64,000 nucleotides of DNA from Dehalobacterium formicoaceticum (GTDB lineage Bacteria; Bacillota; Dehalobacteriia; Dehalobacteriales; Dehalobacteriaceae): positions 930,001 through 994,000 of the forward strand of contig NZ_CP022121.1 of assembly GCF_002224645.1 (NCBI RefSeq), given 5' to 3'. Positions within the stretch are counted from its first letter, which is position 1, and every line of letters starts with the position of its first letter. Below are positions 36,720 to 49,389 of the stretch, piece after piece. Made by a program: the position numbers and the translations under genes. The notes under the pieces were generated by a model. It was not told the DNA's origin. It worked only from the letters and a program-made list of their open reading frames with translations, and searched no databases.

Positions 36720-36735
36720 CCGACCCGCCGGTCGG
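36720..36735. promoter_or_regulatory. Candidate TetR operator
   Basis: CCGACC-CGCC-GGTCGG, a perfect inverted repeat just downstream of the -10 box of the efflux promoter. It is the likely binding site of the TetR regulator encoded as the last gene of this operon. Confidence 0.65.
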
Positions 36736-36800
36736 AAATACATATGGGTTGTTTCCGTGTTTCTTAGTAAAAATTTTGAGTGAAAGAGAGGACCACAGCA

Positions 36801-37889
36801 TTGGCAAGAGCGAATTCAAAAATATTTGCTTCCCTTCTTATCGGGATGAGCATCATGGTTTTTTCGGGATGCGGTGCCCAGGAAACCGGTACAGAGCAAC
36901 AGAATGAAGAAAAGGCCGTACTCGTGGAATCAGGAGCGGTTGTCACCGGAGATATTTCCAGTATTGCTACGGTTAATGGCAAAATTGCTGCCAATCTGGA
37001 AGTGAACATTGTTCCTAAAATGTCCGGCAAGGTTGCTCAAGTTAATTTTCAGGTAGGGGATCAGGTGCGTAAAGGAGCTGTGATTCTTCGTCTGGAAACG
37101 ACTGAACTTCAGGCACAGCTGAAACAAGCCCGAGCTGTTTTAGCAGCGGCCCAGGCGAATTACGAAAGTGCCGTAACCAATTTGGAAAGATCGAAGGTTC
37201 TTTTTGAACAGGGTGCTGTTTCTCAGCAGCAATTGGAGAATGCGCAAACCATGGTTGCTACAGGAAGCACGGACAGCGCCGCTGCTTCCGTTAAGCTGAT
37301 CGAAACTCAAATCGCCAATGCTGTAGTCACTGCTCCGGCAGGAGGCATCGTTTCCGCCCGCATGGTAGAAGTAGGGGAAATGGCCGCTATGGCACCGGTC
37401 ATGACCATTGTCAATATCAATCCGGTCCAGGTGGAAGCCAATGTGATTGAAGGAGACATCAATAAACTGAAAGCCGGTCAAAATGTTGATGTCTTTGTGA
37501 CAGCTGTGCAGGCTGAACCTTTTACCGGTACAATTGACACCATCAGCCCTGCTGCTGAGAGTCAGAGCAATACCTTTCCCATTACGATTAAGATTCCCAA
37601 TGACGGCAACAAATTAAAACCGGGGATGTTTGCCGAAATGAAGCTGATTTTAGAAACAAAAAAAGGTGTTTTATTGGTGCCGAAACAAGCCGTGACGGAA
37701 AGCGACGGCAAGAAGTATGTTTATGTGATCAAAGACCAGAAAGCCCTGCAAACGGAAATTACCACCGGGGTGGAAGATGAAGCTCAGATTCAGGTCCTGT
37801 CCGGTTTAGCAGAAGGGGACCAGATTGTGCTCAGCGGGCAGAACAAACTGCAAAATGGGTCACTGGTAACATCATCGGGGGGAATCTAA
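36801..37889 (+). CDS. RND efflux periplasmic-adaptor-type (MFP) lipoprotein
   Basis: HlyD/AcrA-type membrane fusion protein of 362 residues from TTG at 36801, which follows GAGAGGA at better spacing than the GTG at 36780. Lipobox VFSGC (Cys about residue 24) makes it a lipoprotein. Then a biotinyl-lipoyl half (VNGKIAANLEVNIVPKMSGK), a coiled-coil hairpin (about 95-165, with LKQARAVLAAAQANYESA), a lipoyl return half (VTAPAGGIVSARMVEVGE), a beta barrel and a C-terminal domain. It is the first gene of the pump operon. Confidence 0.92.
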   Translation: MARANSKIFASLLIGMSIMVFSGCGAQETGTEQQNEEKAVLVESGAVVTGDISSIATVNGKIAANLEVNIVPKMSGKVAQVNFQVGDQVRKGAVILRLETTELQAQLKQARAVLAAAQANYESAVTNLERSKVLFEQGAVSQQQLENAQTMVATGSTDSAAASVKLIETQIANAVVTAPAGGIVSARMVEVGEMAAMAPVMTIVNINPVQVEANVIEGDINKLKAGQNVDVFVTAVQAEPFTGTIDTISPAAESQSNTFPITIKIPNDGNKLKPGMFAEMKLILETKKGVLLVPKQAVTESDGKKYVYVIKDQKALQTEITTGVEDEAQIQVLSGLAEGDQIVLSGQNKLQNGSLVTSSGGI

Positions 37890-37892
37890 TCC

Positions 37893-40800
37893 ATGAAGAT
37901 TATCGAAACTTCCGTCAGACGTCCCGTTACCATTGCCATGGTGATCCTGGTCATCCTGTTGCTGGGTTTTGTTTCTTTAACCCGGTTATCCATCGATCTC
38001 TTTCCTAAAATGGATCTGCCTTATGCCGTGGCTGTTGCCGAATACTCGGGAGCTGGTCCGGAAGAAGTAGAGTCCACTGTGACTGAGCCTTTGGAGGACG
38101 TTTTGGGCACGGTAGAACATGTAAAAAATGTGACATCCACATCCTATGCCGGACAATCTCTCGTGATGGTAGAATTTAATTTCGGCACAGATATGAATTT
38201 CGCCACTTTGCAGATGCGGGAAAAGATCGATATGATCAAAGGAATGCTTCCCGATGATGTAAAAAATCCCATGGTGATGAAGGCTGATCCCTCTATGATG
38301 CCGGTGATCCAGTTAGGCTTGTCCGGAGGCAAAGATCTGAAAGATTTAAAAGATTTAGGGGAAAATGTGATAAAACCCCGCCTGGAGAGGCTTTCCGGTG
38401 TGGCCTCTGTTGCCGTTACGGGAGGGTATACCAGGGAAATTCAAATTTTGGCCGACCCGGTAAGAATGGATGCTTACGGAGTTGGTTTAGATCAAATCAG
38501 TCAGGCCTTGCGCGCTGAGAATATGAATGTGGCCAGCGGCAAGGTGACAGAAGGAAAGAAAGAACTGTTTGTGCGCACCCTGGGGCAGTTTGAAACTCTG
38601 GATGATATCAAGAATGTACGTATCGGTCTTGCCGGAGGAAAATCCATTACCCTGGCGGATCTTGCCACAGTAAAGGACGGGTTTGCTGAGCAGACGCAAG
38701 TCAGCCGTATGAACGGGGAACCCAGTGTCGCGATCAGTGTGCAAAAACAGAGTGAGGCCAATACGGTGCAGGTATCTGACCTGGTACAAAAAGAAATGGC
38801 TTTATTGTCCCAGGAGATTCCGGGAAATGTGCAAGCCAAGACTGTGTTTGATCAGGCCACCTTTATCCGGCAATCCATTAATAGTTTATCCTCCCATGCC
38901 ATCGAGGGCGGATTGCTGGCAGTGATTATTGTCTATTTATTTTTGCGCAGTATACGCAGTACCTTGATTATCGGTTTGGCACTGCCCATCTCTATTGTGG
39001 GGATTTTTACGGTATTATATGCCGGCGGACTGACACTGAATATGATGTCCCTGGGTGGTTTGGCCCTGGGGATCGGTCACTTGGTGGACTGCTCCATTGT
39101 CGTATTGGAAAGCATCTACCGTTACCGCCAGGACGGTTACTCCATGAAAGATGCTGCCGTCCAAGGCGCCAGTGAAGTGGGGATGCCTGTAGTGGCATCA
39201 ACCCTCACCGTTGCAGTGGTGTTTTTGCCCATTGTTTTCGTAGAAGGATTGGCCTCCATGCTATTCCGGGAATTGGCCTTAACGGTGGTTTCCTCCCAGG
39301 GTGTGGCCCTGTTGGTGGCTGTAACCCTTGTGCCCATGCTTTGTTCAAAATTTTTAGTGGTTCCTAAGCATCAGGATGAACGGAAAGCCGGTCTCTTTCA
39401 AAAAATCGAAAATGGCTACAGCAGAATCTTGGCTTGGTCCCTAAGCCATCGTAAAACAGTTCTGATCGGTGTAATTGCTGTCCTGGCAGCCAGCCTGGCT
39501 ATGATTCCAATTGTCGGTACGGAGTTTATGCCTAAATCGGATACAGGTGAACTGGCGATTACTGCGGAACTGGATAAGGGGACTGTTTTGGCAGAAACGG
39601 ACCGGGCGGCGGAAAAAATAGAAATGGCTATCAGTGAAATCCCTGAGGTTAAGACGGTGTTTGTCAATGTGGGCGGTGCAGATATGATGGGAACATCCGC
39701 CTCGGAAGTGGCTGACATGCAGGTGCAATTGGTTCCCAAAGCTGAGCGGCAGCGCAGTGCCGATCAGGTTGCCGACGATATTCGGGAACGTGTTCAGAAC
39801 ATTCCTGGGGCAGATATTTCTGTGACGATAAGCGACAGTATGTCGATGGGTGGCATGGCAGCTGCCCCCATCGCCATTACCTTAAAAGGGGATGATCTGG
39901 ATGTCTTAAAGGGAATGGCTGAGGAGATTCAGGAAATGGTTGCTGCCGTGCCGGGGACGCGGGAAGTGGAGTCCAGTATGACCGTTGGTCGGCCGGAACT
40001 GAAAATCGAGGTCGACCGGGACAGGGCAGTCAGCTACGGCATCAGTGTAGCTCAAGTGGCTTCTGCTGTGCGCACTGCTTTTGATGGCAATGTGGCGACC
40101 CAATATCGCACCGGGGGAGATGAATATGATATTCGTGTCATTTTGCCTGAGGAATATCGTCAGAGTATTCAGGATCTGAATAATGTGAAGATTATTACCC
40201 CCGCAGGTATCCGTGTCCCCTTAGTTAATTTGATTACCACAAATACTGATCTTGGTCCCACTCAAATTGATCGGGAGAACCGCAGCAGGGTTGCTGCCAT
40301 TAACAGTCAAATCAGCGGCCGTGATTTGGGCAGTGTCACCCGGGATATTGAAACGAAATTGCAGGACCTTCATTTACCCCAAGGGTATAGTATCGAAATC
40401 GGCGGAGAAAATGCTGATATGATTGAATCCTTTACCAGCCTGGGCTTGGCCCTGCTTTTAGGCATGATTCTCACCTACATGGTGATGGCGGCCCAATTTG
40501 AATCTTTTATTTATCCTTTTGTAATCATGTTTACGGTACCCACCATGTTTATCGGGGCTATCGCCGGATTAGTTATCACCGGCAGGAGCATCAGTGTGAT
40601 CGTGATCATTGGCTTGATTATGCTGGTAGGCATTGTGGTCAATAATGGGATCGTGCTGGTGGATTATATCAATGTGCTGCGTCGGCGCGGTCTGGATATG
40701 ACAGAAGCGATTAAAAAAGCCGGCCCGATTCGGCTGCGCCCCGTTTTAATGACGGCGTTGACCACTGCCATGGCCATGGTACCTTTAGCCCTGGGAATTG

Positions 40801-40988
40801 GTGAGGGAGCGGAAACTCAGGCACCGATGGCGACAGTTGTTGTGGGCGGGTTAACTACCTCTACCATATTTACCTTGGTTTTTGTGCCGGTTATGTATAC
40901 CTTGGTTGAAGACGCCGCCAATTGGGTAAAAAGAAAACTTAGCAGAAAACCTAAGAAAAAGCAAATATCGGAAGGAGAGGTTATGTAA
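37893..40988 (+). CDS. RND efflux transporter (HAE1/AcrB-like)
   Basis: Inner-membrane RND pump, 1031 residues, with 12 helices and two large extracytoplasmic loops, full length. The N-terminal helix FVSLTRLSIDLFPKMDLP is typical. In TM4 the AcrB Asp pair (D407/D408) corresponds to D399-C400 (GHLVDCSIVVLES), and the TM10 Lys (K940) is replaced in GIVVNNGIVLVDY, so the proton relay differs from AcrB. Start ATG at 37893, three bases after the MFP stop. Likely exports hydrophobic drugs or lipids. Confidence 0.94.
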   Translation: MKIIETSVRRPVTIAMVILVILLLGFVSLTRLSIDLFPKMDLPYAVAVAEYSGAGPEEVESTVTEPLEDVLGTVEHVKNVTSTSYAGQSLVMVEFNFGTDMNFATLQMREKIDMIKGMLPDDVKNPMVMKADPSMMPVIQLGLSGGKDLKDLKDLGENVIKPRLERLSGVASVAVTGGYTREIQILADPVRMDAYGVGLDQISQALRAENMNVASGKVTEGKKELFVRTLGQFETLDDIKNVRIGLAGGKSITLADLATVKDGFAEQTQVSRMNGEPSVAISVQKQSEANTVQVSDLVQKEMALLSQEIPGNVQAKTVFDQATFIRQSINSLSSHAIEGGLLAVIIVYLFLRSIRSTLIIGLALPISIVGIFTVLYAGGLTLNMMSLGGLALGIGHLVDCSIVVLESIYRYRQDGYSMKDAAVQGASEVGMPVVASTLTVAVVFLPIVFVEGLASMLFRELALTVVSSQGVALLVAVTLVPMLCSKFLVVPKHQDERKAGLFQKIENGYSRILAWSLSHRKTVLIGVIAVLAASLAMIPIVGTEFMPKSDTGELAITAELDKGTVLAETDRAAEKIEMAISEIPEVKTVFVNVGGADMMGTSASEVADMQVQLVPKAERQRSADQVADDIRERVQNIPGADISVTISDSMSMGGMAAAPIAITLKGDDLDVLKGMAEEIQEMVAAVPGTREVESSMTVGRPELKIEVDRDRAVSYGISVAQVASAVRTAFDGNVATQYRTGGDEYDIRVILPEEYRQSIQDLNNVKIITPAGIRVPLVNLITTNTDLGPTQIDRENRSRVAAINSQISGRDLGSVTRDIETKLQDLHLPQGYSIEIGGENADMIESFTSLGLALLLGMILTYMVMAAQFESFIYPFVIMFTVPTMFIGAIAGLVITGRSISVIVIIGLIMLVGIVVNNGIVLVDYINVLRRRGLDMTEAIKKAGPIRLRPVLMTALTTAMAMVPLALGIGEGAETQAPMATVVVGGLTTSTIFTLVFVPVMYTLVEDAANWVKRKLSRKPKKKQISEGEVM

Positions 40989-42128
40989 ATGAAAAAGAAC
41001 TGGCTTTGGGTGATGATAATAGTCCTGGTCTTGGCCGTGGCTACAGCAGGGGTTACCCTGGGAGATGAAGCTGCACCGGAGGTAAAGAAGCTCAGCTTGA
41101 ATCAGGCCATCGAAATGGCTATGAAGGATAATCACCAGGTGGAATTAGCAGCCATTGATGTGGAGAAAGCGGAATTAACATTGGAACAGGCGGAATTTGC
41201 CAGAGATAAGATGATCAATAGCAGTGCGCTGCCCGATAAAGACCGCAGGGATCAAAATCAAGCCATGGTAATCGATGTTGTACCGGTGAACGCAGCAGCG
41301 GGGAAGACAATCGCCGATACCAAGAAAACCTATACGGAAAACAGCATTAAGTTTGGCGTGGAATCCGCTTATTACGGGTTGCTCCAAGGGGAACGAAAGT
41401 TGGCGGTTTCTCAATCTGCTTTGGCCAGGGCCCAGGAGCAATTAAAGGTAGCCCAGGCGAAGCTGAAGGCAGGGACAGTGGCCAAAATTGAAGTGATTGC
41501 GGCAGAAGCCCAGTTAAAATCTGCGGAAGCAGAGGTAAATCAAAGTAAAGCCGATATGGAGAAAGCCCGCATGGCTTTGAATAAAACATTGGGCTTGAAC
41601 CTGGATACTCCCATCGTTTTAACGGATCAATTTAATTTCAACCCGGCTGGAACCATTGACCCGCAAAAGGTTTTCCAGGAAATGCAATCGAAGGATTTGT
41701 CCTTAGTTTCAGCCCAGGAAAGCTATAAGATGAATGAAGCTAATTGGGATTATCACCAAACCTATTTTACGGCAAATACCTTTGTTTATCGGGATGCAAA
41801 ATTCAAAGTGAAGGAAGCAGAGGTTAACCTGAATCAGGAGAAAGCTGCGCTGGAAATGAACATAAAAAATGCTTATCTGGATCTGAAAACAGCGGAGGAA
41901 AACTATCAGGTGCTTACCAAAAGCCTGGAACAGGCCAAAGAGGCTTTGCGCCTAACCAAGCTCCGCTATGATGTAGGTATGGCCACCGGCTATGATGTCC
42001 TCAGCTCCGATGGGGCAATTCAGCAAGCCGATTTGGGATTGTTAAGCGCCTTATACAATTACAATTTAGCCAAGGCTAAGTTCACCTACGGTATTTTTAC
42101 CGGATCTTCGGCTTCCGGCGGCATTTAA
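40989..42128 (+). CDS. TolC-like coiled-coil protein lacking clear barrel strands
   Basis: 379-residue exported protein of the outer membrane efflux (TolC) family: signal peptide about residues 1-25, then two OEP repeats, each with long Ala/Gln/Glu helices (LSLNQAIEMAMKDNHQVELA; ALARAQEQLKVAQAKLKAG; second repeat KSLEQAKEALRLTKLRYDVG). The segments that in TolC form four barrel strands are short and not amphipathic-beta here, so it may be a periplasmic or wall-located alpha tunnel. ATG at 40989 directly abuts the pump stop. Confidence 0.85.
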   Translation: MKKNWLWVMIIVLVLAVATAGVTLGDEAAPEVKKLSLNQAIEMAMKDNHQVELAAIDVEKAELTLEQAEFARDKMINSSALPDKDRRDQNQAMVIDVVPVNAAAGKTIADTKKTYTENSIKFGVESAYYGLLQGERKLAVSQSALARAQEQLKVAQAKLKAGTVAKIEVIAAEAQLKSAEAEVNQSKADMEKARMALNKTLGLNLDTPIVLTDQFNFNPAGTIDPQKVFQEMQSKDLSLVSAQESYKMNEANWDYHQTYFTANTFVYRDAKFKVKEAEVNLNQEKAALEMNIKNAYLDLKTAEENYQVLTKSLEQAKEALRLTKLRYDVGMATGYDVLSSDGAIQQADLGLLSALYNYNLAKAKFTYGIFTGSSASGGI

Positions 42129-42145: not shown

Positions 42146-42739
42146 GTGCGCTTTGAAGTGAACCCCCAGGATAAAAGGTTACGTATTATGCAGGCGGCAG
42201 TTCGGGTTTTTGCACAAAAGGGTTTTCATCGGGCTAAAATGGAGGAAATTGCCCGCACAGCAGATGTGGGCAAAGGAACGGTCTATGAATATTTTCCCAG
42301 CAAGGAACGGCTTTTCATTGAAATGATCAAAATAGGCAAAAAATATTATCAGGACCGGCTGATGGCTCAAATCAAAGGGGTCGAGGGATTCTCGGAAAAA
42401 CTAAAGGAAGTGGCTTATCTGCACATGATTTTTTTTCATGAGCATCGGGACATGACGCAGGTGATGATGCAGGAATATCTGCAACTGGGTGCTGAGGTCC
42501 ATGAAGAGTTTGCCCAGTTTCATGAACAGGAAATCCGGGTGATCCGGGAAATCATCGCCCAAGGAACAGATGAAGGTTCATTCAGACCACAGGAAACCGA
42601 AAGGACATCTTTGTTTTTTTATGGTGCGGTTCATGCTGTCAGCTGCAGGAGCATTAGTGCTCTAGGAAAAAATGATCTGGAAAAACTGGCGGAAGAAGTC
42701 ACAGATCTTTTCTTAAGGGGTATTGCCCTTAAAAGCTAA
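42146..42739 (+). CDS. TetR family transcriptional regulator
   Basis: 197 residues. N-terminal HTH about residues 10-55 (IMQAAVRVFAQKGFHRAKME, TADVGKGTVYEYFPSKERLF), then an all-helical ligand domain. GTG start at 42146 after AAGGTGGTGGAG. As the last gene of the efflux operon it probably represses the operon through the palindrome at 36720-36735 and is relieved by pump substrates. Confidence 0.92.
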   Translation: MRFEVNPQDKRLRIMQAAVRVFAQKGFHRAKMEEIARTADVGKGTVYEYFPSKERLFIEMIKIGKKYYQDRLMAQIKGVEGFSEKLKEVAYLHMIFFHEHRDMTQVMMQEYLQLGAEVHEEFAQFHEQEIRVIREIIAQGTDEGSFRPQETERTSLFFYGAVHAVSCRSISALGKNDLEKLAEEVTDLFLRGIALKS

Positions 42740-42914: not shown

Positions 42915-44165
42915 ATGAAAAGTATGGTAAAATGGCTGATGCCAATCATCCTGGGGATGATGATCCTGTTCAGTGTGCTGCCTGTGTCGGGGGCGGAAGA
43001 TGAGGAAACCTTAAGGTTGAATCGGGAATACATTGAAAACAATCTTCAGGATAATCGTGCTGCCTTTAAAATGATGCATACAGAACGCAATGTAAAGAAA
43101 CTGGAAATCACTGATGAGGCTCTAAAATATATAGAAGAAAAGGGGATCCAAATCACTTTGGAAACTAACCATATGACCCTGGACTTCACACCGGCGATAT
43201 TTAAAACCAAGGAATGGCAGACAGCCTTAAAATCCGGGGAGCCTTTAAGCGTACAATTAATTATCAAAAGAGGCAGCGGCATCAAAGTTACTGAGAACTT
43301 TGATCAGTGGTATTATCAACAACTAGGCATAGACCGGTTAGGCACTTCCTCCTGGGAACTATCGGGGGAAATTCTCGTAGCCGGCGTGAAACAGTATGAG
43401 ATCCATGAATTTGCTTCTAATCTGGCCATCCGGTTAAAATATCCCAGTGAAGCCCTGATTAGTGTTGCGGATGAAAATAAACTGACCATGTTTTTGTTCA
43501 ATGAAACCCAGAGCAAATGGGATGATTTGGGGGGGAACATTGATCGGGTAAACAAAACTATCCGTTTCCAGATAAAAACCCCGGGTTTGTTTATGATTGT
43601 TGTCAATCAAAAGCCGCAGCAATTTACGGATATTAAGGGACACTGGGCAGAGAGTGATATTTTGGCCATGACAGGGAAAAAAGTGGTCATTTTATCGGGA
43701 GATAGAAAGTTTTATCCTAATCGGGAAATAACCCGTGCTGAATTTGCCTCCTTTGTCGTCAGGACCTTGGGCTTAATTCATGAGACCGGAACACAAAAGT
43801 TCCAGGATGTGGGGGTAGGCCATCCCTATTATCAGGATATTATGACAGCTGCCCATCATGGCATTGTGACTGGGGTAGGGTCAGGCCGTTTTGCCCCCAA
43901 TGCCAGGATTACCCGGCAGGAAATAGCTGCCATGATGGTAAGGGCAGAGAAACTTAAGGGCAAATCATTACCTGCCGATCAAAGCGTACTTAATAGGTAT
44001 CAAGATCAGAGAGATATTGCTCTTTGGGCCCGGGAGAGCTGTGCCCAGGTTGTCCAATCCGGGATCATGGTGGGAAAAAGCGACCGCCTTTTTGCTCCTA
44101 AATCCACTGTCACTCGGGCAGAGGCTATTGTGTTGCTCCACAGATTGGCAAAAAATTTGGATTAA
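42915..44165 (+). CDS. Secreted protein with three C-terminal SLH domains
   Basis: 416 residues. Signal peptide about 1-26 (PVSGA-E). Residues 30-230 are an unrecognised, mostly beta domain that includes EITDEALKYIEEKGIQITLE and a WDDLGGNIDRVNKTIRFQI stretch like those that precede SLH repeats in other Firmicute proteins. Three SLH repeats (about 235-416) carry ITRAEFAS, ITRQEIAA and VTRAEAIV. Anchored to the wall polymer from outside. ATG at 42915 after GGGGAGG. Function of the N-terminal domain unknown. Confidence 0.85.
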   Translation: MKSMVKWLMPIILGMMILFSVLPVSGAEDEETLRLNREYIENNLQDNRAAFKMMHTERNVKKLEITDEALKYIEEKGIQITLETNHMTLDFTPAIFKTKEWQTALKSGEPLSVQLIIKRGSGIKVTENFDQWYYQQLGIDRLGTSSWELSGEILVAGVKQYEIHEFASNLAIRLKYPSEALISVADENKLTMFLFNETQSKWDDLGGNIDRVNKTIRFQIKTPGLFMIVVNQKPQQFTDIKGHWAESDILAMTGKKVVILSGDRKFYPNREITRAEFASFVVRTLGLIHETGTQKFQDVGVGHPYYQDIMTAAHHGIVTGVGSGRFAPNARITRQEIAAMMVRAEKLKGKSLPADQSVLNRYQDQRDIALWARESCAQVVQSGIMVGKSDRLFAPKSTVTRAEAIVLLHRLAKNLD

Positions 44166-44259: not shown

Positions 44260-46077
44260 TTGAATGTAAAGAAAAAATCTATGGCTATTGCTATGATCCT
44301 GTGCTTGTTTTTTGTTTTTGGCACCATGGCCTTAGCGGCAGAAACATCCTTAACGGATGTCTCCGGTCATTGGGCAGAAGATTTCGTCGTTGAATGGAAT
44401 CAGGAAGGCGTTGTGGGAGGTTATCCCGATGGTTCCTTTCAGCCCAATCGTGAAATTACCAGAGCCGAATTTATTACCATCATTAATCAGGCTTTAGGCT
44501 GTATTGCAACAGAAAATTTCAATTTTTCTGATGTTCAGCAGGGAAACTGGTTCTATGGAGAAGTTGCCAAGGCGATGAAAAGCGGCTATATGACCGGCTA
44601 TCCTAATGGAACTTTTCAGCCGAACAGCCCGATCAGCCGCCAGGAGGCTGCCATTGTTTTTTCCCGGATTATGGCCTTAGAGAATGATGAGCAGGGGGCG
44701 TCGGATTTTACCGATGTGAACAAAATCCCAGCCTGGAGCAAAGGTTTGGTAGGAGCAGTTGCCGAAGCCGGTTATATGGGGGGTTATCCTGACGGAACGT
44801 TTCAGCCGACCAAATCCATCACCAGGGCGGAGTCGGTAGCCACATTGGATCGGATAATCGGGGAATTTTATAATGAGGCCGGGGCCTATGGATCGGAAAC
44901 AGCATCCATGACGGTAGAAGGCAATGTCACTGTTACTGCCGCCGATGTCACCCTGGAAAACATGGTCATTAAAGGGAACCTGTATTTGGCGGAAGGTATC
45001 GGCAGCGGCACAGTTCATCTTAATAATGTCACCGTTGAAGGTGATACCATTATTCGCGGCGGCGGGAAACAAAGTGTCATCATGTATAATTTTAACGGTC
45101 AGACTGTAATTGTGGATGTACCGGAAGGTGCCGATGTGCGTATTCTTGTCCAGGGAACCAGCACCATGACAGAAGTCATCATGGAATCAGACGGGATCTT
45201 GGAAGAGGGGGATCTCACGGGAAGCGGATTTATTGATGTGATCATTCCGGAAGATGCGGAAGTTGTTCTGATCGGAACCTTTAATAACGTGGAAATCACC
45301 GGGCCAAACGTGGTTCTCGAACTGGAGGAAGGAACCATTCAAAGGTTAACCATTCAAGAGGATGCTGATGATGCTCAGGTGGTCTTAGGAACAGGAACCT
45401 CGGTGACTCAACTGACAGTACAAGCTCCTGCAACCGTCACGGGAGAGGGATCCGTTGGGAACGCTCGCATTGAGAGTTCTAACGTCACCATTGAACAAGC
45501 GCCCACTAAAGTGGAATTAGCAGACGGTGTGAAAAATGTAAATGTGGACGGTAAGGAAATAGGAGATACTGAAGACACACCTGGAGGTAACATCGGTGGT
45601 GGTGGAGGCGGCGGCGATGGTGACAGTGAGCCGACCATTTCCATTAATGAGATTAAATTGCAGCTAAAGGATCAAACCGGAAAAGTCCTGGCAAAAGAGG
45701 GAACCGATTCCTTTGAATTCAGTCTTGCTGCTGAAGATGATCTCACCTACTTTACAGGAATTGAAATCAACGGCAAATATGTAAACAAAGGCACCTTAGT
45801 GATGCAGGAAGTAGAGATTGATGGCGTCCGTATGGATTCGATCCCTGGATTCCCCGGGATCTCACTGCTCAGTAAGAATAAAGCCACCATTGATGAGCAG
45901 GGCTATGTTTCCACAAACAGTATCATCAATGAGGCCATCCGGATCTTGGATCCAAATGGTGATGGCGTTAGTCTGAAGATGCTGAGAACACTGGGATCGG
46001 AGTTTGTCTTTAAAGGTTATGTTGAACGATCCGGTAATAGTAACAGTAAGGCTATTTCAGTGACTTTAGTAATCTAA
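44260..46077 (+). CDS. SLH protein with beta-solenoid-like region
   Basis: 605 residues. Signal peptide about 1-27 (TMALA-AE). Three N-terminal SLH repeats (to about 205) with ITRAEFIT, ISRQEAAI and ITRAESVA, each with the GYPDGTFQP-type turn. Then about 210 residues of short Val/Thr-rich repeats (VTVTAADVTLENMVIKGNLY, VHLNNVTVEGDTII) suggesting a right-handed beta-helix, a Gly-rich hinge (GGGGGGGDGD) and an unknown C-terminal domain. TTG start at 44260 after AAGGGGG. Probably a wall-anchored accessory surface protein. Confidence 0.85.
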   Translation: MNVKKKSMAIAMILCLFFVFGTMALAAETSLTDVSGHWAEDFVVEWNQEGVVGGYPDGSFQPNREITRAEFITIINQALGCIATENFNFSDVQQGNWFYGEVAKAMKSGYMTGYPNGTFQPNSPISRQEAAIVFSRIMALENDEQGASDFTDVNKIPAWSKGLVGAVAEAGYMGGYPDGTFQPTKSITRAESVATLDRIIGEFYNEAGAYGSETASMTVEGNVTVTAADVTLENMVIKGNLYLAEGIGSGTVHLNNVTVEGDTIIRGGGKQSVIMYNFNGQTVIVDVPEGADVRILVQGTSTMTEVIMESDGILEEGDLTGSGFIDVIIPEDAEVVLIGTFNNVEITGPNVVLELEEGTIQRLTIQEDADDAQVVLGTGTSVTQLTVQAPATVTGEGSVGNARIESSNVTIEQAPTKVELADGVKNVNVDGKEIGDTEDTPGGNIGGGGGGGDGDSEPTISINEIKLQLKDQTGKVLAKEGTDSFEFSLAAEDDLTYFTGIEINGKYVNKGTLVMQEVEIDGVRMDSIPGFPGISLLSKNKATIDEQGYVSTNSIINEAIRILDPNGDGVSLKMLRTLGSEFVFKGYVERSGNSNSKAISVTLVI

Positions 46078-46113
46078 TCCGGCTTTCTTCGGAACTTAAT
46101 CTCAGCTAAAGAG

Positions 46114-46145
46114 AGAGTACGACGCGAATGTCGTACTCTTTTTAT
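46114..46145 (+). terminator. Terminator after the SLH/beta-solenoid gene
   Basis: AGAGTACGAC (46114-46123) pairs with GTCGTACTCT (46130-46139), followed by TTTTTATTTTT. Confidence 0.9.
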
Positions 46146-46186
46146 TTTTGAGATAAACTTTCCATGTTTTTAATTTGAAAAATTTA

Positions 46187-46195
46187 TGGTAGAAT
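46187..46195 (+). promoter_or_regulatory. Extended -10 promoter of the csaB cluster
   Basis: TG-G-TAGAAT (46187-46195), 33 bp before the DUF5693 gene. Confidence 0.45.
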
Positions 46196-46227
46196 ATAGG
46201 CGTTATTTGAATAAAGGAAGGCTTTTT

Positions 46228-48240
46228 ATGGAGGTCGGGCAGAGCGTGATGAATAAAGGATGGAAATGGGTATTAATAGGCGCAATTTTGGCAGGGATGT
46301 TGATGGCCGGATATGTAGCATGGGCGCGAAATGGTGTGGAGCAGGCAAACAAAGAAATTACAGCCGTTTTAGATTGGAAACAAGTCAAAGAACTGGCAGC
46401 ACGGGAAAATATCCCGGAGCAAGAGGTCTTGGAAGAATTCCGGGGAAAAATCACAGGGGTGCTCTTTAAGGAAACCACCTTGAATGATCTGAAGGCCAAA
46501 GGGGACCTGCTTTTTAAAACAGGGATTGAAATGAAGTGGGATTTGAGAACAGGAGCCAGTCAAGGACTTAAGCTGAAAGAGAATGACCAGGAGGAAGAGA
46601 TTCAAGAGGATTGGACCTATTTGGTCTTTGCGGATGAAGAGAGCATGGAACGGGTACAAAGGAACCTATCCCTAAAGCTGGCTGATCAAAATCCTCAGCT
46701 CCTCAGCTGCTATCTTCAGACACCTCAGGGAGTAATGCCGGTTTTGGGAACATCCTTGTCTTTAAATGATATCATCCTTTTAGGGGTAGGGTTTGAAGAA
46801 GAGGATTTGTCTCTGGTGCGCTCTGTGGGTTTACAGATCATTCCGCAGATCCGTTTTTGGCGAAATGTGACGGAGGAAAGCCTGGAGGTAGTCTTCGGCC
46901 AGTTTCAGGATATGCCGGTTTCCGCTGTATTTTTTAATGATCGGGAGGTACCGGGGATAGGTCTGCCGATCCATCGGCAAAAAGAAGCATTGAAAGCCAT
47001 TGCTCATCAAATTGAAGGGTTGCATGTTCCTTTGGGGATGATCGAATTTTTACCGCAAAAAGGAATCAGTATGGTAGGCCAATATTTGGAAAAGAATATG
47101 GTGCGCATGCATTCCATCGGTGAAGCGGAGATGCTGACCACAACCCAAAGCCAGGCGGTGGAACGGTATACCTTAGCGGCTGCAGAGCGGGATATCCGGG
47201 TGCTTTTAGTGCGTCTCATTCCTGGTATGGGCATCAAAGATCTGAACAACTATTTGGCGGAATTAAAGACTTCGTTAGAAGATAAAGGTTACCAATTGGG
47301 CTATGCCCAAGGCTTTGGATCATTGCCATTTTCCCGTCTTTATCTGGCGCTGATCGGACTAGGTGTAACCGCCGGCGGGATGCTCTTGCTGGAACAATTA
47401 AAATTGAGAAGATTAGGTTTGCTTTTAGGCGCTTTGGGCTTTATCGCCTTTCTGGGATTGCTGTTTATAGGTGAGATTAGCATCGCGCGAAAGGCGATGG
47501 CCTTGATGTCCGTAATCATTTTCCCCACTTTGTCCGTCACCCTTTGCTTAGGTGAAAAATCCTCCGGCTTAGGGAATACGATCCTTCAATTTATAAAAAT
47601 GGCTTTGATATCCTGGATTGGTGCTTTGCTCATGGTGGGATTGTTAGGAGATAAAACCTTCATGTATACTTTGGATCAATTCATGGGGGTAAAACTGGCA
47701 CATGTAGTGCCCCTTTTCCTCATTGTCCTGATCTTTTATGTCTTTAAGAGTTCCACCATGCATCCTTTGAAAAAGGCGGGGCAGGTTTTAGACTATCCCA
47801 TCGCGGTGAAGCATGTAATACTTTTGGGTATATTAGGTATTGTACTGCTGATATATTTGATGCGTACCGGTAATGACAGTGGAACTGTCTCTGCCTGGGA
47901 ATTGGCCTTGCGTTCGGGACTGGGTGATTTATTGGCAGTCCGGCCTCGGACAAAGGAGTTCCTTATTGGTCACCCCCTGATGTTTTTATTGATCTATTTA
48001 GGTTATCGGGATAAATATCTGCCAATTTTAGTAGTGGGGATGATCGGACAGGTTTCTCTGGTCAATACCTTTGCCCATATTCATACCCCTATAGTCATTT
48101 CCCTGCTCCGCGCCTTCAATGGTCTTTGGCTGGGGATCCTCGTGGGCCTGTTGTTAATTGGTTTGATCAAAGTGGGGCAAAAGCTGATGGTTAAGATTCA
48201 AACCGCTATTGAAGCCATGGATCAAGAGGAAGTCCGCTAG
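46228..48240 (+). CDS. DUF5693 family membrane protein
   Basis: 670 residues from the ATG at 46228 after AAAGGAAGG; another in-frame ATG at 46249 is possible. One N-terminal membrane helix, an extracytoplasmic domain of about 350 residues (VSAVFFNDREVPGIGLP, and a conserved ERYTLAAAERDIRVLLVRL), then eight or more C-terminal helices. Matches the DUF5693 family that sits next to csaB in many Firmicutes, so a role in making or exporting the pyruvylated wall polymer is inferred. No enzymatic motif recognised. Confidence 0.8.
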   Translation: MEVGQSVMNKGWKWVLIGAILAGMLMAGYVAWARNGVEQANKEITAVLDWKQVKELAARENIPEQEVLEEFRGKITGVLFKETTLNDLKAKGDLLFKTGIEMKWDLRTGASQGLKLKENDQEEEIQEDWTYLVFADEESMERVQRNLSLKLADQNPQLLSCYLQTPQGVMPVLGTSLSLNDIILLGVGFEEEDLSLVRSVGLQIIPQIRFWRNVTEESLEVVFGQFQDMPVSAVFFNDREVPGIGLPIHRQKEALKAIAHQIEGLHVPLGMIEFLPQKGISMVGQYLEKNMVRMHSIGEAEMLTTTQSQAVERYTLAAAERDIRVLLVRLIPGMGIKDLNNYLAELKTSLEDKGYQLGYAQGFGSLPFSRLYLALIGLGVTAGGMLLLEQLKLRRLGLLLGALGFIAFLGLLFIGEISIARKAMALMSVIIFPTLSVTLCLGEKSSGLGNTILQFIKMALISWIGALLMVGLLGDKTFMYTLDQFMGVKLAHVVPLFLIVLIFYVFKSSTMHPLKKAGQVLDYPIAVKHVILLGILGIVLLIYLMRTGNDSGTVSAWELALRSGLGDLLAVRPRTKEFLIGHPLMFLLIYLGYRDKYLPILVVGMIGQVSLVNTFAHIHTPIVISLLRAFNGLWLGILVGLLLIGLIKVGQKLMVKIQTAIEAMDQEEVR

Positions 48241-48288
48241 AAAAAGTATCCCGGAGAAAGATTACTAAATGAAAAAGGTTGGCATCAA

Positions 48289-49389
48289 ATGAAGAGAATT
48301 GTTTTATCAGGGTATTATGGCTTTAATAATATTGGGGACGAAGCAGTTTTGATTGCGATTATCCAGGCCTTAAAAAAAGAAATATCGGACGTGGAGATTA
48401 TCGTGCTCTCTCAGGATCCCCCTAAAACAGAAAAGCAAATGAATGTTCAAGCGGTTAATCGCTGGTGCCTGCCTCAAATCATTGGAGCCATCAAAGAATG
48501 CGACTTATTGATTAGCGGCGGCGGAAGTTTGCTCCAGGATGTCACGGGTAAAAAAAGCATTCTCTATTATTTAGGCATCATTACCATCGCCCGTTGGTGG
48601 AAAAAACCTGCGATGATTTATGCCCAAGGCATTGGTCCGGTGCAAAGTTCCTGGGCCCGAAAAATGGTCAGGAACGTCTTAAATAAGATGGATCTGATTA
48701 CTGTAAGGGATGAGGCATCTGGGGCAGATTTATCTTCTATGGGCGTGACCCGGCCGCCGATGCACGTCACGGTGGATCCGGTAATGGGGATGGAACGGCC
48801 GGAGGAAATTCAGATTTTGGACAAATTCCCTTATCTTAATGAAGAAGAGGGTAAATTGGTTGGCTTCAGTCTCCGCCAATGGCCGGGCTTAGCCCTGGAG
48901 GAATTGGGCGCCCTGGGAGATGATTTGGCTGAACGGGGCTTTAAGGTAGTTTTTTTGCCCTTTCATTTTCCCGAGGACATTTCCGTATGCCGGGATGTGG
49001 CAAAGCTCATGAAGCAGGAAAATCATCTGATCAAAGATAATTTATCACCCATGGAGATGATGGGTGTGGTGGGGAAGATGGATTTAGTAATCGGCATGCG
49101 TCTTCATGCTTTAATTATGGCCGGAGCCCAAGGAATACCCTTTGTTGCGATTGAATATGATCCCAAGGTGGGGAGATATGCCAATTTAATGGGGCAAGAA
49201 ACAGCCTGTTCCGTAGAAACCATGTCTTGCGAAAATTTGAGAAATAAAGTGGAACAAATTATGGCCGAATACAGTCTAATTAAGGAAGGTTTGGAGCAAA
49301 AGGCTGCATCTTACCGTTTGGAAGCACAAAAATCAGCTCAATGGGCAGCAGAAATGCTTAAAGATTCCAATTTGAAAAAAAGGAAGTAA
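48289..49389 (+). CDS. csaB: Polysaccharide pyruvyl transferase CsaB
   Basis: Adds ketal-linked pyruvate from PEP to the secondary wall polymer, creating the ligand for SLH domains. 366 residues with a GT-B-like fold: SGYYGFNNIGDEAVL at the N-terminus, LISGGGSLLQDVTG near residue 65, YAQGIGPV near 105, and MRLHALIMAGAQGIPFVAIEYD near 265. ATG at 48289. Its presence explains the three SLH proteins in this window. Confidence 0.94.
   Translation: MKRIVLSGYYGFNNIGDEAVLIAIIQALKKEISDVEIIVLSQDPPKTEKQMNVQAVNRWCLPQIIGAIKECDLLISGGGSLLQDVTGKKSILYYLGIITIARWWKKPAMIYAQGIGPVQSSWARKMVRNVLNKMDLITVRDEASGADLSSMGVTRPPMHVTVDPVMGMERPEEIQILDKFPYLNEEEGKLVGFSLRQWPGLALEELGALGDDLAERGFKVVFLPFHFPEDISVCRDVAKLMKQENHLIKDNLSPMEMMGVVGKMDLVIGMRLHALIMAGAQGIPFVAIEYDPKVGRYANLMGQETACSVETMSCENLRNKVEQIMAEYSLIKEGLEQKAASYRLEAQKSAQWAAEMLKDSNLKKRK

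Follow-up and report, generated by a model that had tools for sequence, protein, structure and literature searches.

A TolC-family protein without barrel hairpins in the RND pump operon of Dehalobacterium formicoaceticum, a bacterium without detected outer-membrane genes

Our computational analysis of a 64,000-nucleotide stretch of the Dehalobacterium formicoaceticum genome (hereafter, the window) identified a TolC-family protein without either hairpin of the outer-membrane barrel. It is encoded in an RND pump operon, the genome gave no match to outer-membrane genes, and docking motifs are conserved on both the tube side and the adaptor side. At a probability of about 0.7, we interpret this locus as a TetR-controlled RND pump whose barrel-less, alpha-helical TolC tube would be docked on a lipoprotein adaptor, without an outer membrane. 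Specifically, both barrel hairpins would have disappeared from the TolC-family subunit, or would never have been part of it, leaving an alpha-helical tube whose proximal tip would dock on the hairpin tip of the adaptor as in AcrA-TolC. Given docking of this kind, substrate leaving the pump would enter a tube that rests on the cytoplasmic membrane and projects into the zone of the cell wall. We infer a trimeric, docked tube that may reach into or through the wall.

The window belongs to a complete, single-contig genome of 3,766,545 bases. The operon runs from the adaptor gene through the RND permease and the TolC-family (OEP) gene to a TetR-family regulator, all on the forward strand with gaps of 3, 0, and 17 bases, which bears out a sequence-only reading of the locus as an RND operon with a TolC relative. 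The adaptor (36780–37889; 369 aa) matched TIGR01730 at 247.5 bits (cut-off 94.9) as well as PF16576. It is probably a lipoprotein, as had been proposed: a lipobox, FSGC, was recognised by eye (36861–36872), and the hairpin carries the RLS docking motif RSKVLFEQGAVS (37188–37223), with the spacing of MexA R119/L123/S130 (PMC4446572). The permease (37893–40988; 1031 aa; PF00873, 905.5 bits), the adaptor, and the RLS motif of an RND tripartite pump are thus all present in the operon. The OEP gene (40989–42128; 379 aa, ATG start) was delimited and classified from its open reading frame, Pfam OEP match, anchor distances, AlphaFold2 model, and superposition on TolC, and is followed by the regulator (42146–42739; PF00440). 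A perfect inverted repeat, CCGACC-N4-GGTCGG (36720–36735, unstranded; 6-base arms, 4-base spacer), lies 44 bases upstream of the adaptor gene and is a probable TetR operator. Relatives have similar repeats ahead of the adaptor gene: some form of upstream inverted repeat accompanied 23/33 RND-linked adaptors (a raw count without a chance rate), and many were of the ACCGAC...GTCGGT type.

Two SLH-domain wall proteins (PF00395) follow the operon on the forward strand, at 42915–44165 and 44260–46077, the former being a neighbour kept in two relatives. The two SLH genes are succeeded by genes for a DUF5693 protein and a PF04230 polysaccharide pyruvyl transferase that we take to be CsaB-like (region 44260–49386); these downstream genes probably serve SLH wall anchoring. 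Copies of the window protein that are 60 and 65% identical occur in two related genera with the same downstream neighbours, SLH proteins included. The closest relative carrying an organism name was Candidatus Formimonas warabiya DCMF (L074; 59% identical). A weak relative (23% identity) was seen on a contig labelled Deltaproteobacteria (L086).

The membership of the 379-aa protein in the TolC family, and its lack of evident barrel strands, had both been suggested from the letters alone and were upheld by profile searches and modelling. Pfam OEP (PF02321) matched it at 98.4 bits (cut-off 22) in two stretches, the two OEP repeats of the family. Both genome-level matches begin mid-profile (positions 94 and 84 of 187), so the part of the profile before the second helix pair was unmatched. 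Between conserved anchors, the window protein has 79 residues in half 1 and 59 in half 2, compared with 94–136 and 96–136 in 30 OEP proteins of Omp85-bearing Bacillota. The AlphaFold2 single chain (14 aligned sequences; mean pLDDT 86.2, pTM 0.77) is all-helical. Its only strands are at residues 33–35 and 209–211, with none at either barrel-hairpin site, in line with the claim that the parts between the helices are short and not beta-like. At the first site, the helices are joined through residues 79–88 and a short helix (89–96), and at the second through residues 260–264. The corresponding distal tips are residues 79–97 (tip 1; 41223–41279, forward strand) and residues 260–267, FTANTFVY (tip 2; 41766–41789, forward strand), in which Y267 recurs in 31/40 short proteins of Omp85-lacking genomes. 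The model superposes on E. coli TolC (1ek9; Z 24.2, 3.7 A, 321 residues) and has the TolC alpha-barrel fold; the protein is predicted to be alpha-barrel only, as had been suggested. The two barrel hairpins per subunit that make up the 12-strand barrel of a trimer were absent by both the single-chain model and the anchor distances. The alignment named A2 took 13 of 14 related loci, L086 being excluded.

The same genome contains a second OEP of 467 aa (L040 3222–7589; genome about 1011–1016 kb), whose operon also encodes ABC-2 permeases and a lipoprotein adaptor. It has 136/59 residues between anchors; its second hairpin is absent and the first tip bears a long insert.

With regard to the host, Omp85, LpxC, and LptD had no match in the complete single-contig genome, and the same searches found them in 7, 4, and 2 of 14 control genomes, respectively. 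With gene absence as a proxy, the host is predicted to be without an outer membrane. Neither a predicted barrel nor outer-membrane genes, the two results that the sequence-only reading had named beforehand as counting against it, turned up. To place the protein in a wider setting, an even draw of 398 Bacillota genomes was surveyed. Among the matches listed, OEP was present in 286/398 genomes and Omp85 in 100/398; both families occurred together in 98/398, and OEP occurred without Omp85 in 188/398. OEPs were measured in a sample of 60 of these 188 genomes, from which 40 loci were fetched, and an OEP was called short when its half-2 anchor distance was <75. Half 2 spanned 51–61 residues in 32/34 of the first-measured proteins of Omp85-lacking genomes (among the matches listed), and 37/41 OEP ORFs in the 40 loci, which represent 40 genomes, were short, i.e., the second hairpin was absent. 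Of 36 short-OEP loci that were fetched, 16 had adaptor, RND permease, and short OEP in one row, and 17 had a TetR gene immediately 3'. The barrel-less OEP type is widespread in Bacillota.

The second half was long in the other 4/41 OEPs of Omp85-lacking genomes (L092, L115, L124, and L125). The OEPs of L124 (6229-) and L125 (5609-), in the Omp85-lacking genomes G088 and G207, are unusually long (665 and 720 aa), and both genomes are devoid of SLH and CWB2 domains. L115 (272-) encodes a full-barrel OEP (106/104) in a 450-contig genome (G081) with no Omp85 match; contamination or an incomplete assembly is a possible explanation.

The pump-facing end of the tube is conserved. The proximal tip glycines G162, in the adaptor-facing turn (41472–41474, forward strand), and G330 (41976–41978, forward strand) were glycine in 40/40 short proteins of Omp85-lacking genomes. 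The R-x3-L-x6-S motif, whose docking role in adaptors has been described (PMC4446572), occurred in 20/25 RND adaptors of short-OEP loci (counting adaptors of 250–560 aa from RND-containing loci), against 1.7 expected from shuffled letters. With both the RLS motif and the tip glycines retained, conservation at this end of the system resembles that of true TolC pumps. The counted adaptors all came from OEP loci, and adaptors in general may conserve the RLS motif.

The sequence-only reading had also tied the barrel-less form to a single membrane. This held for the host, which has no detected outer-membrane genes, but not for the form at large, as Omp85-bearing Bacillota also have short OEPs beside barrelled ones; the earlier interpretation is, as a whole, partly supported. 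The notion that a barrel-less OEP is a sign of a missing outer membrane had been based on best matches only, and it was rejected once more OEP matches were examined in 36 of the 98 genomes that have OEP as well as Omp85. From 28 of these 36, 40 loci were fetched, chosen among the matches listed, and 33 short OEP genes were found, spread over at least 22/36 Omp85-bearing genomes. The total of 33 excludes ORF 5128 of L152, which runs off its contig and has a full-profile match. The second OEP of L177, typed full by distance, groups with the short ones in both trees and was left outside the 22-genome count. A second OEP was nearby for 32/33 short genes: 25/33 lay directly upstream of it (24 of these partners were typed full, and the contig end cuts the other), 1/33 lay directly downstream, and 6/33 were on the same strand 0.9–3.8 kb from a full one. 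The last short gene had no second OEP within the fetched stretch.

The diderm short proteins also differ in their first tip. The half-1 distance was 57–61 residues in all 33 by an independent alignment (a first alignment gave 80–124 for some), compared with 67–202 (median 77.5) in the short proteins of Omp85-lacking genomes. Judging from these distances, distal tip 1 is minimal and hardly varies in the presence of a barrelled partner, and is larger and variable elsewhere. One example is a MAG contig (L084) on which RND, short, full, and TetR genes follow in order with overlapping reading frames. The genome of L084 itself had no Omp85 match, and Omp85 is present in the genomes of its two close sisters, L082 and L083. 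The diderm-type short protein of L084 was predicted by AlphaFold2 to be all-helical with minimal tips (pLDDT 82.6). A suspicion that the diderm RND adaptors beside short OEPs have no hairpin was dismissed: the short lengths in L152, L158, L160, and L171 reflect start-codon choice or stretch edges, and the motif is present in these adaptors as R-L-S or R-L-T (by eye). Four ABC-type loci with a short OEP in Omp85-bearing genomes (L163, L165, L179, and L180) have an adaptor coiled-coil hairpin of ~35 residues, which looks reduced by eye.

A quick tree of 141 proteins (L124, L125, the truncated L152 ORF, and three duplicate rows were omitted) grouped the majority of short proteins from monoderms and diderms together (54 rows, SH-aLRT 86; 45 rows, 91), and a second, ABC-linked diderm short group stood apart. 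A careful tree of 84 rows (16 rows, mostly long branches, were left out and 20 full rows retained) gathered 25 short proteins of monoderms, the window protein among them, in one clade with 100/100 support. It did not place this clade relative to the diderm short groups, and the short form may have had one origin or several. A recent tandem duplication as the source of the pairs was rejected: same-locus short and full proteins were not sisters in the quick tree, with the exception of L154, a flagged long-branch join, and no same-locus pair formed sisters in the careful tree with its 20 full rows.

A reasonably possible, if tentative, alternative to the docked tube is an S-layer location, in which a small hydrophilic structure would take the place of the barrel, as Stubenrauch 2022 (PMC8809574) proposed for the C. 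difficile protein. Those authors described how monoderm Firmicutes have TolC-like proteins encoded in pump operons, with S-layer genes and without Bam, reported an omission in the homology-modelled C. difficile barrel, and remarked that such proteins were seen in monoderms only together with S-layer genes. SLH genes follow the operon studied here, and SLH was present in 16/40 fetched loci (counted by hand, a raw count without a background rate). At the genome level, SLH was found in 182/188 OEP-only genomes compared with 64/110 genomes with neither OEP nor Omp85 (Fisher p 3e-17, uncorrected for kinship), and SLH or CWB2 in 184/188 compared with 79/110 (Fisher p 2e-11, likewise uncorrected); SLH-positive genomes numbered 345 of 398, and the SLH-negative set (53 genomes) was compiled by hand. 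The longer distal tip 1 of Omp85-lacking genomes would also suit a replacement structure. However, four OEP-only genomes (G088, G092, G207, and G330) have neither SLH nor CWB2, the association with OEP was counted without correction for kinship, and short proteins also occur in diderms alongside a barrelled partner. These counts agree with the S-layer-gene remark of PMC8809574, yet slightly weaken it. It is improbable, in our estimate, that the short protein is a heterotrimer partner of barrelled TolC in diderms and a ductless leftover in monoderms. The short and barrelled genes do abut, but a mixed trimer would be expected to break the 12-strand barrel, the tip glycines and RLS motif are conserved even where the barrelled partner is absent, and 188/398 genomes (among the matches listed) retain OEP without Omp85. 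Least credible, and very improbable, is a recently acquired Gram-negative pump in decay whose barrel was lost by drift. The missing barrel, and nothing further, speaks for it, and it is contradicted by conservation across relatives: the 60 and 65% identical copies with the same neighbours, the single clade (100/100) of 25 short proteins from Omp85-lacking genomes, and the similar inverted repeats upstream of the adaptor gene.

The docked, barrel-less tube can be extended to the diderm pairs. There, a short tube of this kind probably works together with a full-length TolC; the short protein would form the proximal segment of a longer duct and the barrelled TolC its distal segment. Stacking would be the simplest arrangement for using both tubes with a single adaptor, although diderms may instead form heterotrimers or use short and full subunits alternately. 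A more doubtful step is that some efflux pumps of diderm Bacillota have four parts (pump, adaptor, barrel-less tube, and barrelled TolC tip to tip, doubling the reach), with the barrel-less end offering six helical hairpins in a ring, the geometry of six adaptor hairpins, and that monoderm Bacillota kept the pump and lower tube after losing the outer membrane and upper tube, and enlarged the freed tip. If this were true, the persistence of TolC-like genes in monoderms without Bam would follow from the retained lower tube.

TolC-like proteins in monoderm Firmicutes, the C. difficile barrel omission, and the S-layer idea are already known (PMC8809574). Judged by the literature searched, three points are new: neither hairpin is present, the docking motifs are retained, and diderms carry short-plus-full pairs. 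That literature, with subscription journals and preprints mostly outside it, contained no report of short and full TolC genes in pairs, and section 8 of PMC8809574 makes no mention of such pairs in diderms. The question posed in PMC8809574 of how TolC-like proteins assemble without Bam receives a concrete answer here, because the window protein has no barrel to assemble. The diderm pairs offer a longer-duct architecture that can be put to the test, together with a marker of pump rebuilding upon outer-membrane loss in Bacillota.

Like the monoderm proteins of Stubenrauch 2022, the window protein is an OEP in an adaptor and pump operon, with S-layer-type genes, no BamA, and a barrel omission; the C. 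difficile model, however, has a barrel domain with a hydrophilic surface (PMC8809574), whereas both hairpins are gone here. It shares two OEP repeats, the alpha-barrel, and the equatorial domain with E. coli TolC (1ek9), but has no barrel strands, is 379 aa long, and belongs to a host predicted to be without an outer membrane. With MexAB-OprM and AcrAB-TolC the system has in common an RND permease and an RLS-motif adaptor, and differs in its barrel-less exit duct and in a cell without an outer membrane. YknX-type adaptors provide a precedent for a hairpin adaptor in a Gram-positive, in a MacAB-like system (PMC4446572), whereas the operon described here combines such an adaptor with a TolC relative and an RND pump.
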